Assembly (NCBI RefSeq): GCF_014204715.1
Contig: NZ_JACHLY010000001.1
Span: 3,618,501 to 3,682,500, forward strand
Length of the DNA stretch: 64,000 bases
Source: Streptomonospora salina
Lineage (GTDB): Bacteria > Actinomycetota > Actinomycetes > Streptosporangiales > Streptosporangiaceae
Direction of reading: 5' to 3'
The notes under the pieces are model-generated. The model did no database searches. It was not told where the DNA came from and saw nothing but the letters and a program-made list of their open reading frames with translations. This document shows, in pieces, positions 59,240 through 64,000 of the stretch (within the stretch, counting starts at the first letter, position 1; the number at the start of each line of letters is the position of its first letter). A program made the position numbers and the translations under genes.

Positions 59240-61072
59240 TCAGACGCGCAGAGCGCGCGCGTACCAGCCGTCCCGCTGCGCCAACTGCGCATGGGTGCCG
59301 TGCTCGACGATCCCGCCCTCGGCGACCACGTAGATGTCGTCGACCCGGTCCAGACCCGCCAGATCGTGGGTGATCAGCAGGGTGGAGTATCCCCGGGCCG
59401 CCGCCAGCAGGTCCGCCGTCACCGCGTCGCGGGTGCCGGGGTCCAGGTGCGCCGTCGGCTCGTCCAGCACCAGCACCCGCGGGGCCGCCAGTACCGCCCG
59501 CGCCAGGGCGAGCCGACGGCGCATGCCGCCGCTCAGCTTCATCCCGTGCGAGCCCGCATCGGTGCCGAGCCCGTGGGGCATCGCCCGTACGTCGGCGGCC
59601 AGGCGCGCCCGCTCCAACGCCTCCCACAGCCGGTCGTCGTCGGCGCCCGGAGCGGCCAGGCGCAGGTTCTCGCGCACCGTGCTCGCGAACACGTGCGGGT
59701 CCTGCGGTACCCCGGCGACCGCGGCGCGGATCTCGTCGGCGGGGAAGGCGGTGATGTCGGCGCCGCCGAGCTCCACCGTCCCTTCGTCGGGGTCGCGGAA
59801 CCGCAGCAGCACTTCGGCCAGCGTGCTCTTGCCGGCCCCGCTGGGGCCGACCAGCGCGACGGTGCTCCCCGGTGCGACGTCGAGGTCGACTCCGCGCAGC
59901 GCCCACGGCTCGTCGGGGGCGTAGCGCACGCTCAGCGACCGCACCCGCAGCGCCTCCGCCGGTGCCGCCTCCGCACCGGCGGTACCGCCCGCACCGGCGT
60001 CGGCGGGCAGGCGGCGCTGCGGATCCGTCGGCGGCGCGACCGCCGGCGGCGCGTCCAGAATCCCGAACAGCCGCTCGCCCCCCGCACGGATCGCGCCGAG
60101 CCGCCCCGCGACGGCGGGCAGCGGGGACACGATCTCGAACGCCGCGAGAGCCGTCAGCACCAGCACGGCCAGCGGCACCGCGCCGAGCGAGCCGCCCTCC
60201 ACCGCGGCCACGCCGAGCAGCAGCGTGCCCCAGACCGTCAGACCGGTGATCAGCGCCGAAGCGCCGGCCCCGAAGCCCAGCACCGCGGCGTCGCGCCGCG
60301 CGACACGGGTCAGCTCGGCGTCCGCGTCGTTCACCCGCTGCACCGCGCGGTCCATGGCGCCGTACGCCACCAGGTCGGGAGCGCCGTAGAGCGTGTCGAC
60401 CAGGGCCGTGGCCAACTCGCCCCGCGCGGCCGCCTGGCGCCGCCCCGGCCCGCGCCCCAGGGCCGCTGAGATCAGCGGCACCGCCAACCCGGCCGCAAGC
60501 AGGCCCGCGCCGAGCAGGAGCCCTCCGGGAACCAGCAGGGCCGTGCACAGCGCTACGGCCGCGCTGCCGGTGAGCAGCGCGGCCAGCGGCGGCGTCAACC
60601 CGCGCACCAGCAGGTCCTGGGTGGCGTCGGTGTCGCTGACCAGCCGCGAAACCAGGTCGCCGGAGCGGAAGCGGCGCACCGGCTCGGTGCGGGCCAGGCG
60701 TTCGTAGACGCGCACACGCACGTCCGCGAGCGTGCGGAACGCGGCGTCGTGGGTCACCAGCCGCTCCAGGTAGCGGGTGAGGCCCCGCGTGATCCCCAGG
60801 GCCCGTGTGGCGACCACGGCCACGCTCAGTGCCGTGATGGGGGGATGCTCCGCCGCACGTGCGATGAGCCACGCTGCGACGCTCAGCAGCGCCACGCCCG
60901 ACCCAGCTGCGAGGGCACCCAGTGCCACGCCGAGTAGGAATCGGGCGCTGCGCGGCCGCGCGAGCGCGATCATCCGCCACAGCGGGTCCCGGCCCGCACC
61001 GGCAGGGGCGTCGGCGTCCGCGGCGCGGTCCGGCCCCCGGCCCCGTTCCGGGTCCGCGGTCTCGTCGCTCAT
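59240..61072 (-). CDS. cydC: ABC exporter subunit CydC
   Basis: Half of the CydDC ABC exporter, 610 residues. CydDC moves thiols (glutathione or cysteine, probably another low-molecular thiol in actinobacteria) or heme across the membrane and is needed to assemble cytochrome bd. The N-terminal membrane domain has about six helices (LLGVALGALAAGSGVALLSVA onward). The ATPase has Walker A LVGPSGAGKSTL, signature KLSGGMRRRLALARA (LSGGM instead of LSGGQ), Walker B VLVLDEPTAHLD and the H-loop LLITHD. The ATG overlaps the cydD stop (ATGA), so the two are translationally coupled. Confidence 0.95.
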   Translation of the reverse strand: MSDETADPERGRGPDRAADADAPAGAGRDPLWRMIALARPRSARFLLGVALGALAAGSGVALLSVAAWLIARAAEHPPITALSVAVVATRALGITRGLTRYLERLVTHDAAFRTLADVRVRVYERLARTEPVRRFRSGDLVSRLVSDTDATQDLLVRGLTPPLAALLTGSAAVALCTALLVPGGLLLGAGLLAAGLAVPLISAALGRGPGRRQAAARGELATALVDTLYGAPDLVAYGAMDRAVQRVNDADAELTRVARRDAAVLGFGAGASALITGLTVWGTLLLGVAAVEGGSLGAVPLAVLVLTALAAFEIVSPLPAVAGRLGAIRAGGERLFGILDAPPAVAPPTDPQRRLPADAGAGGTAGAEAAPAEALRVRSLSVRYAPDEPWALRGVDLDVAPGSTVALVGPSGAGKSTLAEVLLRFRDPDEGTVELGGADITAFPADEIRAAVAGVPQDPHVFASTVRENLRLAAPGADDDRLWEALERARLAADVRAMPHGLGTDAGSHGMKLSGGMRRRLALARAVLAAPRVLVLDEPTAHLDPGTRDAVTADLLAAARGYSTLLITHDLAGLDRVDDIYVVAEGGIVEHGTHAQLAQRDGWYARALRV

Positions 61073-63108
61073 CGGGCGTCCTCCGCTTCGACGCGTCCGT
61101 CGCGCACCGGGACCACCGCGTCTACGGCGTCGGACCAGCGCGTGTCGTGGGCGACCACGACACCCGTGCGGCCGGCGAGCAGCCGGGTGACCGCCGTGCG
61201 TACGGCCGCGGCGTTGTCGGGGTCGAGGTGGGCGGTGGGCTCGTCCAGCAGCACGATGGGGGCGTCGAGCAGGAACGCCCGGGCGAGGGCGATGCGCTGC
61301 CGCTGCCCCGCGGACAGGCGGGCGCCGCGCTCGCCGAGGCGCGTGGCGTAGCCCTCGGGAAGGGCGCGGACGAACGTGTCGGCTTCGGCACGCTCTGCCG
61401 CCAGCCGGACCTCGTCCATACCGGCCTCGGGCGCGCCCAGCCGGATGTTGCCGGCGACGGTGTCGTCGAACAGGTAGGGCGACTGCGGCACCCACGCGAT
61501 GCGCCTGCGCCACTCGTCCACGGGGACGCCGTCCAACGGCACCCACTCCGCCTCCGCTCCGGAGCCCGCGGCGCCGGCCTCGGCGTCGCGCACCCGGATG
61601 CGCCCCGCCACGGGATCGGCGAACCGCAGTAGCAGCGACAGCAGCGAACTCTTGCCGGATCCGCTCGGGCCTGCGAGGAGCACCGAGCGGCCGGGTTCGA
61701 TCAGCAGATTCGCCCCGTCGAGCGCGGGAGCCTCCCGGCCCGGATAGACGAGCCGGACATCCTCCAGCTCGATCCACGCGGCACCGGAGGACCCGATGCG
61801 CGGGCGCTGCTTGTCGGCGGTGCGGTCGGCATCGCCCACTCCGCTCGCTCGTCGCCTCTCCAACTCGGTGTTGTCTGGGAGTGTTCGGCTTCTCGCTCGG
61901 CTGCGCGGGCGCTGCTTGTCGGCGGTGCGGTCGGCATCGTCCACTCCGCTCGCTCGTCGCCTCTCCAACTCGGTGTTGTCTGGGAGTGTTCGGCTTCTCG
62001 CTCGGCTGCGCGGGCGCTGCTTGTCGGCGGTGCGGTCGGCATCGCCCACTCCGCTCGCTCGTCGCCTCTCCAACTCGGTGAACACCTGCTCGGCGGCGGC
62101 TACCCCTTCCATGCTGGCGTGGAAGCGGGATCCCACCTCGCGCAGCGGGAGGTAGGCCTCCGGCGCGAGGATCAGCACCAGCAGAGCGGTCTGGTAGTCC
62201 AACACCCCGTACATCAGACGGATGCCGATCTCCACCGCCACCAGGGCCACCGCCAGGGTCGAGAGCAGCTCCAGCACGAACGCCGACAAGAAGGCCACCC
62301 GCAGTGTCGCCATGGTGGTGCGCCGGTGCTCGTCGGTGATCCGCCGGATGATGGCGGCCTGGGCCTTGGCGCGGCGGAAGATCGCCAGTGTGGGCAGCCC
62401 TTCCACCACGTCCAGGAAATGGCCGCCCAGCCGGTTGAGCAACTGCCACTGGCGCCGGGTGCGCGCCTGGGTGTGCCATCCCACCAAGGCCATGAACAGC
62501 GGGATCAGGGGAAGCGTCACCGCGATGACGGCGGCCGAGATCCAGTCCGCGCCCGCTACGACGACGAGGACCGCGCAGGGGACGAGCACCGCCAGCACCA
62601 GCTGCGGGAGATACCGGGCGAAGTAGTCATCCAGCGCGTCCAGGCCACGTGTGGCGAGCGTGACCAGTTCGCCGGCGCGCGGCGTGCCCGTCCCCTCGTC
62701 GGAACCGGCCTGCCCTGACAACCAGACCGCTTCCGCCCCCGACGGCCCTGCGGGCCGGGGGGAGTCTTCCGATTCCCCGTCCTGTCCGTCTTCGCCGCCC
62801 GTTCCCGTCACATGCGCCACCAGGCGCCGGCGCAGCTGGGACTTGGCCCGGGCCGCCGAGCGCAGTGCCGCGGTCTCCTGGGCGTAGGCCGTGGCCGCAC
62901 GCGCGAGGGCCACGGCGGCGACGGCGCTGATCGCCCAGCCCAGTTCGGCCGTGCCGGCGCCCTCCGCCGCTCCGGAGATCACGTGTGCCAGCAGCCAGGC
63001 CTGGGCGAGGACGAATCCGGTCACGAGCGCGCCGGCGACCACGGTGACGGCCACGTGCACGCGCACGGCGCGCGCCGCGCGCACGAGGCGGGGGTCGAGC
63101 GGCTTCAT
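61069..63108 (-). CDS. cydD: ABC exporter subunit CydD with in-frame tandem-repeat insertion
   Basis: Second CydDC half, 679 residues, about 100 longer than usual. The membrane domain is normal (RGLDALDDYFARYLPQLVLAVLVP) and the ATPase has Walker A LLAGPSGSGKSSLL, signature RLSAGQRQRIALARA and Walker B IVLLDEPTAHLD. Between them, residues 344-437 are 2.7 tandem copies of a 35-residue unit beginning TELERRRASGV; a complete unit ends RTLPDN. The unit is highly basic and has no counterpart in CydD. A second, smaller acidic insertion (about residues 106-148) lies in the first membrane region. GGAGGG precedes the ATG. The cyd order is B-D-C. Confidence 0.95.
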   Translation of the reverse strand: MKPLDPRLVRAARAVRVHVAVTVVAGALVTGFVLAQAWLLAHVISGAAEGAGTAELGWAISAVAAVALARAATAYAQETAALRSAARAKSQLRRRLVAHVTGTGGEDGQDGESEDSPRPAGPSGAEAVWLSGQAGSDEGTGTPRAGELVTLATRGLDALDDYFARYLPQLVLAVLVPCAVLVVVAGADWISAAVIAVTLPLIPLFMALVGWHTQARTRRQWQLLNRLGGHFLDVVEGLPTLAIFRRAKAQAAIIRRITDEHRRTTMATLRVAFLSAFVLELLSTLAVALVAVEIGIRLMYGVLDYQTALLVLILAPEAYLPLREVGSRFHASMEGVAAAEQVFTELERRRASGVGDADRTADKQRPRSRARSRTLPDNTELERRRASGVDDADRTADKQRPRSRARSRTLPDNTELERRRASGVGDADRTADKQRPRIGSSGAAWIELEDVRLVYPGREAPALDGANLLIEPGRSVLLAGPSGSGKSSLLSLLLRFADPVAGRIRVRDAEAGAAGSGAEAEWVPLDGVPVDEWRRRIAWVPQSPYLFDDTVAGNIRLGAPEAGMDEVRLAAERAEADTFVRALPEGYATRLGERGARLSAGQRQRIALARAFLLDAPIVLLDEPTAHLDPDNAAAVRTAVTRLLAGRTGVVVAHDTRWSDAVDAVVPVRDGRVEAEDAR
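61797..62080. repeat. 105-bp tandem repeat, 2.7 copies, inside cydD
   Basis: Period exactly 105 bp (for example CGGGCGCTGC at 61801, 61906 and 62011). The copies are identical where they overlap except at 61940 (T), which is C at 61835 and 62045 (Gly to Asp). Length divisible by 3 and no stops, so the cydD frame is kept. Unit DNA includes CTCGCTCGTCGCC and is less GC-rich than the flanks. Confidence 0.95.
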
Positions 63109-63128: not shown

Positions 63129-64000
63129 TCAGGCGTCGGCCGGGCCGGGCGGCGGTGCCTGCTGCGCCGCCGCGGCGCCTGTTCCGCCCGCCCCCGCGGA
63201 GCCGCCCGTGCCGCCCGCTGCAGAGTCACCATAGGCGGGTGCGGGGTCGATCTGCTCACGGCTCACGCGCCTGCGGAACACCCAGTAGCTCCACGCCTGG
63301 TAGGCCACGACGATCGGCAGGAAGACCACGGCCACCCAGGAGATCACCGTGAGCGCGTAGGGAGCCGAGGACGCGGAGGCCACGGTCAGATCGAACGCGG
63401 GGTCGGTGGTCGAGGGCAGCACGGCCGGATACAGCGCCCCGAACAGGGTGACGGCCGTCGCGCCGATCGCGGCCATCGTCGCGGCGAACGACCACCCTTC
63501 GCGCCCGGCCGCGGCCAGCCGCGCGCCGACGGGCAGCGCCGCCGCGGCCGCCGCGGCGACGGGCAGCGTCCACCCGGCGCCGTACGCGTACTGCGTCCAC
63601 GCCAGGAACACGGCGCCCGCCGGGACCGCGACCGCCGACGCGCGCAGTGCGGCGGTGCGGGCGCGTGTCCGCACGGGACCGGAGGTCTTGAGGGTCAGGA
63701 AGACCGCGCCGTGCAGCGTGAACAGGGCCAGCGTGGTCAGCCCGCCCAGGAGCGCATACGGGTTGAGCAGGTCCGGCACGGTGCCGGTGACGATGCCGTC
63801 GGCGTCCATCGGAACGCCGCGCACGATGTTGCCGAAGACCACGCCCCACAGCACCGCAGGGACCGTGCTGCCGGCGACGATCGCCCGGTCCCACCAGGCG
63901 CGCCACCGGTCGGTGTCGCCTTTGCCGCGGTATTCGAAGGCGACGCCGCGCACGATCAGCGCGAGCAGGATGAGCAGCAGAGGCAGGTAGAAACCGCTGA
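63129..64000 (-). CDS. cydB: cytochrome bd oxidase subunit II (partial)
   Basis: C-terminal part (about 290 residues) of CydB; the 5' end lies beyond the window and the frame is open to its last bases (SGFYLPLLLILLALIVRG). CydB is the membrane subunit paired with CydA in the high-affinity quinol oxidase. Visible: WRAWWDRAIVAGSTVPAVLWG, DLLNPYALLGGLTTLALFTLHGAVFL and PYALTVISWVAVVFLPIVVAYQAWSYWVF, all family-typical. The C-terminus carries a Gly/Ala-rich tail after the last helix. It ends 20 nt before cydD, so cydA-B-D-C is probably one operon continuing outside the window. Confidence 0.95.
   Translation of the reverse strand, partial: SGFYLPLLLILLALIVRGVAFEYRGKGDTDRWRAWWDRAIVAGSTVPAVLWGVVFGNIVRGVPMDADGIVTGTVPDLLNPYALLGGLTTLALFTLHGAVFLTLKTSGPVRTRARTAALRASAVAVPAGAVFLAWTQYAYGAGWTLPVAAAAAAALPVGARLAAAGREGWSFAATMAAIGATAVTLFGALYPAVLPSTTDPAFDLTVASASSAPYALTVISWVAVVFLPIVVAYQAWSYWVFRRRVSREQIDPAPAYGDSAAGGTGGSAGAGGTGAAAAQQAPPPGPADA

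Follow-up and report, generated by a model that had tools for sequence, protein, structure and literature searches.

The gene for CydD in Streptomonospora salina carries a nearly perfect tandem repeat that is translated as part of the protein, and this raises the question of whether the repeat is a duplicated piece of linker, a module of the exporter, or a nucleic-acid element that became part of a coding sequence. We analyzed the locus within a window of 64,000 nucleotides, the whole stretch of DNA considered here, and compared it with related genomes. The initial annotation of this DNA had claimed 2.7 copies at 105-bp spacing that differ at one base and add about 94 residues in frame to an otherwise normal cydD. 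Tandem Repeats Finder returned exactly this array, with 98% matches and 0% indels, and its score of 561 was the highest of the entire window. The two full copies, which are 99% identical, differ only at position 61940 (plus-strand numbering), where the exchange falls in the stem of the hairpin described below and unpairs it; all 74 bases of the partial third copy are identical to the first copy. The array has a length of 284 bp, corresponding to about 94 codons with 35 codons in every unit, and the open frame of 679 aa that contains it on the minus strand is unbroken. Each 105-bp unit contains one copy of a repeat family and also a repeated host stretch (about ACCGAGTTGGAGAGGCGAC). Coordinates are collected in Table 1, in which the host genes of dispersed copies (glycosyltransferase, nuo, atp, carA, and so on) bear the names that we take them to have from their translations.

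Table 1. Features of the cydD locus in the window, followed by sites of the repeat family at other genes (TRF, Tandem Repeats Finder; G000, genome of the window; G000-G005, Streptomonospora).
Feature	Position or genome	Strand	Basis or remark
In-frame tandem array, 105-bp period, 2.7 copies	61797..62080	-	TRF; site and period common to 6/6 Streptomonospora genomes searched
Partial copy (TRF phase), 74 bp, nearest the cydD start	62007..62080	-	contig coordinates G000:C1:3680507-3680580
Full copy (TRF phase), differs from the other full copy at 61940	61902..62006	-	
Full copy (TRF phase), nearest the ATPase domain	61797..61901	-	
Repeat-family core, first unit	61986..62063	-	covariance model R1, 76.0 bits
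Repeat-family core, second unit	61881..61958	-	covariance model R1, 75.6 bits
Repeat-family core, third unit, truncated (array end inside core)	61774..61853	-	covariance model R1, 47.8 bits
Core hairpin of first unit	62010..62049 (arms 62039-62049 and 62010-62020)	-	covariation/fold structure applied to the sequence, coordinates by hand
cydD, 679 aa, array host	61069..63108	-	ORF; TIGR02857 654 bits; ABC_membrane and ABC_tran
cydC, next operon gene (downstream)	59240..61072	-	TIGR02868 594.7 bits, cut-off 329
Cytochrome bd oxidase subunit II gene, upstream neighbor, runs past window edge	63129..63998	-	Pfam Cyt_bd_oxida_II 229 bits
Acyl-CoA ligase 3' end	G003, G004		unit includes stop codon
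Acyltransferase interior, in frame	L037 3922-5973 (G003)		array of 5.5 x 102 bp
nuoM/nuoN junction	G001, G002, G000		one copy, three tandem copies, and one degenerate copy, respectively
Glycosyltransferase-like N-terminus	L083, L087, L090 (G001, G003, G004)		solitary core in frame
carA C-terminus	G010, G020, G078		
carB end, atpF/atpH, pyrH/frr, nuoB/nuoC, nuoD/nuoE, nuoG/nuoH, rplE/rpsN, and others			other core sites

The host protein is a CydD by the equivalog model TIGR02857, as its 654 bits lie above the curated cut-off of 435. The array is positioned between the ABC_membrane match (residues 144-313) and the ABC_tran match (residues 463-626), in agreement with the initial placement between transmembrane and ATPase domains. 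The best solved chain, 8ipq_B, presumably an M. smegmatis-type CydD, covers query residues 150-343, and the ATPase matches of other solved chains begin at residues 430-463. In an AlphaFold model computed with 19 sequences, residues 356-440, which correspond to the array, had pLDDT values below 50, and most of the ATPase domain was above 85. As the membrane part of the same model was poor (mean pLDDT 62.9), this prediction supports linker disorder mildly, and we regard the Arg-rich peptide as probably disordered. A conserved protein domain was rejected because the middle of the peptide is variable and its pLDDT is low. A separate short imperfect tandem (30 bp x 1.9, 90% matches) lies at 63508-63568 within the neighboring gene for cytochrome bd subunit II.

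Units of 105 bp occur at one and the same CydD site in all of the six Streptomonospora genomes searched. In each of them the array starts directly after AAEQVFTELE, and the core starts are exactly 105 bp apart. From G000 to G005 there are 2, 3, 1, 2, 2, and 2 full units, each with a further partial unit, and the CydD lengths are 679, 712, 644, 689, 709, and 702 aa. The 16 outgroup CydDs, chosen from 50 non-Streptomonospora cydD loci, were all without units; these proteins have 557-611 aa, and their linkers are shorter and unrelated and lack the core. The linker had initially been proposed to vary in length, and with 1 to 3 full units it does so between Streptomonospora species; it is therefore not the constant linker in relatives that had been named as a possible objection. 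The other objection, an assembly artefact, has in its favor that near-identical tandem copies are a usual source of misassembly, and the exact number in one genome may indeed be wrong. Arrays at this site are nevertheless present in six genome assemblies of 2 to about 120 contigs, with species-specific sequence, which leaves an artefact with a next to negligible probability.

The near-identity of the copies had been taken as a sign of recent duplication or homogenization. Since G002 has a single full unit, this can be judged in five multi-unit species, and in four of them the full units are nearly the same (G000 99.0, G001 99-100, G003 100, and G005 98.1% identity), as proposed. The exception is G004, where the full units are alike at only 74.3%, so that homogenization is not universal. 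Between species, unit identity averaged 79.1% in 59 comparisons, with a maximum of 92.4%.

The initial annotation had further suggested that the unit is a mobile or extragenic type of repeat captured in a coding sequence. When one unit was compared with 41 genomes by BLAST, eight matched, namely the six Streptomonospora genomes, G010, and G012; the G012 match was discarded as chance because there was no core in the sequence when read. The outcome was twofold: the core occurs at unrelated genes of relatives, but the own genome contains no other clear copy of the unit, only one degenerate copy at 36 bits. The sequence CGAGCGAGCGGAG has four exact matches in this genome: three lie in cydD, and the fourth precedes a different gene, with the remaining core absent. 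The core reads in the order GAGNGAGCGGAG, stem, GCGCAGCGANCGAG. The pattern GAGCGAGCGGAGN{5,35}GCAGCGAGNGAG proved too strict, as it matched four of 150 family genomes and none from Streptomonospora, and we therefore built the covariance model R1 from 16 cores, the cydD copies included.

With R1, ten genomes that had been chosen for having already shown a copy gave 4, 5, 5, 15, 7, and 3 matches (G000 to G005) and 8, 6, 8, and 48 matches (G010, G020, G072, and G086) at E <= 0.05. With stricter filters, 19 of 196 genomes sampled from the class matched at E <= 1e-4, the genome of the window among them. These 19 are spread over four families (9, 8, 1, and 1 genomes), and three of them have a single match at E 7.9e-6 to 3.6e-5, which could be chance. 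G317 has 24 matches of the family, and tandem copies occur at several loci in G086 and G317. Outside cydD, G003 has two more arrays, and further core copies were found in G004, G001, and G010, whereas the genome of the window has the family at two loci only.

These distributions bear on the view that the array is an ordinary intragenic minisatellite, which would have arisen by duplication within the CydD linker, the likeness at other loci being due to chance in GC-rich, GAGCGAG-like sequence. Variable linkers often contain minisatellites, the unit does include host linker sequence, and its own genome is nearly devoid of other copies. Against this, R1 matches occur at many unrelated genes and with covariation, and the core is absent from outgroup CydD linkers. 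At the same threshold, 177 of the 196 class genomes had no match, so the family likeness is not a product of GC-richness alone; chance or GC-richness as its source is rejected, and a minisatellite of this kind is highly improbable.

That the core is a structured element is seen from its alignment. In 114 R1 matches (103 of them distinct), 95.1% of the cells at 13 pairs were paired, compared to 83.5% in shuffles and at most 46.7% with slid partners; this large alignment was fitted to R1, and related rows are counted repeatedly, so the counts share ancestry. Among the 103 distinct copies, 134 cells had changes on both sides of a pair compared to 42.7 in shuffles, and none of 500 shuffles was as high. 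The number of pairs having such a change was not exceptional (7 compared to 6.0, with 111 of 500 shuffles as high). One outer core pair, as an example, is C-G in 56 rows, U-A in 23, and G-C in 10. The ten distinct cydD units, which were aligned without structure, gave the same picture, with 94.4% of cells pairing and 15 both-side-change cells compared to 6.2 in shuffles (0 of 500 as high). Three stem positions switch within cydD, between A-U and G-C, C-G and U-A, and G-C and C-G. Two other cydD-only measures were unexceptional: 493 of 500 shuffles were as high for further pair types, and 58 of 500 for pairs with a change on both sides. Single cydD units (n = 3) fold slightly better than shuffles (z -1.13, -1.59, and -1.94), and a copy from G086 folds far better (z -5.78). 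The repeat is a palindromic element with a covarying hairpin, and both cydD and the acyltransferase gene of G003 contain it as an in-frame fusion.

The same alignments are informative for the idea that the repeat is a functional protein module, whose peptide would have been selected for a role in exporter regulation, such as that of an Arg-rich docking or length-tuning linker. The array is in frame in all six species, its copy number differs between them, and the peptide flanks LERRRAS and ARSR are well conserved, all of which speaks for such a module. The middle of the repeat peptide varies freely, however, while the hairpin pairs covary, also within cydD, which indicates that conservation applies to a nucleic-acid structure and that the encoded peptide drifts. 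In addition, the same core also occurs outside coding sequence and is read in other frames elsewhere, and the linker is predicted to be disordered. We thus consider selection for a protein module unlikely.

Some copies are evidently younger than the cydD array. The acyltransferase with the in-frame array in G003 has orthologs in all five congeners, and none of them contains the array, although the flanks in G004 are 92 and 95% identical to those in G003. Similarly, the acyl-CoA ligase has at least two copies in G003 and G004, and no core was present within 400 bases of its end in G000, G001, G002, and G005. As the cydD array is genus-wide, it is older, and together with the two empty sites it shows that capture occurred more than once. 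With copies at unrelated genes, covariation, and empty sites in congeners, the proposed capture of a dispersed repeat is well founded.

We therefore favor, with a probability of roughly 0.8, the explanation that a dispersed hairpin repeat was captured in the CydD linker, grew in tandem together with a host stretch, was homogenized, and is tolerated in frame. A putative non-autonomous mobile element, moved by some enzyme, would have inserted in the ancestor of Streptomonospora, and tandem duplication would have taken in the adjoining host stretch. Unequal exchange or slippage between units may then alter their number and keep them alike. The Arg-rich peptide could be neutral and tolerated because the CydD linker is unconstrained, with selection presumably acting to preserve not the peptide sequence but the frame, and perhaps also the hairpin.

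Members of the family are mostly located in sense orientation at the 3' ends of genes and at operon junctions, often in tandem. In 81 rows taken from the 114 matches, mostly first copies and with two cydD arrays entered twice, the upstream gene was on the strand of the element in 62, on the opposite strand in 6, and unclear in 13. Strand was judged by third-position GC, which errs at times, as L094 (atpF/atpH) was scored antisense although its translation shows sense. Of 35 first copies in G086, 32 have a stop-like triplet no more than 16 bases in front of the core; the upstream frame was callable for 30, and in 27 of these it ends between -30 and +5 relative to the core. Most G086 matches are at gene ends; at L103 1518-1839, four tandem copies with 86-bp spacing follow a stop codon.

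A DTGA rule applies to the MIRU repeats of mycobacteria, and similar flanks were seen here. In G317 and G325, two genomes of the family f19, 14 of 22 first copies have DTGA at 10-20 bases in front of the core, compared to 5 of 22 in a control window; 16 of 22 have it behind the core, and 11 of 22 on both sides. The latter, and the 29-codon ORF that runs from TGATG to ATGA in the atpF/atpH copy of G010 and G020, may point to a habit like that of MIRUs. DTGA flanking does not apply to the cydD array, which is intragenic.

MIRU units have 46-101 bp and occupy 41 loci in M. tuberculosis (PMC3914561). Mobility is attributed to them, as are insertion at start codons and an ORF that is coupled at -4 nt to the gene that follows (PMC12548453). 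The family described here is likewise short, dispersed at many loci, tandem with variable copy number at some, and found at gene junctions, but it has other hosts, the CydD array is not junctional, and the likeness is one of habit. The Rickettsia RPEs, according to PMC2229807, are stem-loop-forming elements of 105-146 bp that are intergenic or fused in frame within protein genes. The present family also forms stem-loops and occurs both between genes and in frame inside protein genes; its phylum is different and its sequence presumably so, and tandem growth with host sequence is prominent. The same source describes ERIC and other enterobacterial intercistronic repeats as small stem-loops that are co-transcribed with their neighbors and whose orientation matters. 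The family shares small size, stem-loop formation, and a dependence on orientation with them, in hosts other than enterobacteria. Compared by habit, the family works like MIRUs and RPEs.

Searches with Rfam release 15 gave no match in 12 element-bearing loci, and the cydD part of the window was without any even when E values of up to 0.1 were admitted; one sub-threshold match in three loci lay outside the element. No carriage was found on plasmids searched with the f19 core and the cydD units, or on phages searched with the f19 core alone. A literature match to the core letters was a mutant primer and due to chance. The analysis adds a structured repeat family of Actinomycetes, without a description found in the literature searched, where subscription papers were thinly covered. 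It also provides a clear case of a nucleic-acid element that is translated within a conserved transporter and at the same time shows covariation of its hairpin pairs. Within Streptomonospora, one ABC exporter is available with a natural series of linker lengths, and if the unit number varies between strains, the cydD array would serve as a typing marker like MIRU-VNTR.

How the element spreads may be reflected in its arms. The gene end that precedes the core in G086 (X) tends to be followed, behind the core, by its reverse complement (X'), even where the end is unusual, for example ATCGGCTGAGCC with GGCTCAGCCGAT and GATCGCGTGA with TCACGCGATC. For 35 first copies, the helix score with the own arm averaged 6.69, compared to 5.73 with swapped arms and a maximum of 6.43 in 5000 permutations. 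For the 17 copies with unusual ends the respective values were 7.82, 5.92, and 7.35, and no permutation reached the own-arm mean in either set. The mirror rule is not universal, as the own arm was no better than the mean of others in four of these 17 (L102, L114, L125, and L132).

Among seven Streptomonospora sites, the young G003 acyltransferase array gave the highest own score (9), and its arm mirrors 13 of 15 host bases by hand count. The acyl-CoA ligase sites scored 7 in G003, where another site reached 11, and 8 in G004. The cydD array of the window matched weakly, with an own score of 6 and one other site at 7, and the three remaining sites scored 4, 6, and 4. By eye, no mirrored arm was found in the operon-junction copies of G010 and G020 or in f19 copies.

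Either selection maintains the hairpin, or the target is copied into the arm. A tentative and rather doubtful extension of the second possibility is templated spread, in which the element would be written into new sites by copying host sequence, with a coding relative in CydD. In G086 the layout would then be X - core - X' - AAGCAC-like loop - X - core, and so on, each insertion bringing the mirror of its target and tandem growth repeating it. If true, this would be a mode unlike that of cut-and-paste MITEs, and the mirrored arms make the spread of such short elements a directly testable question. Direct target duplication was observed at rplE/rpsN and another junction, where in L193 (f19 genome G169) and L191 (G225) the unit ends with a copy of the 3' end of the upstream gene and its stop codon.
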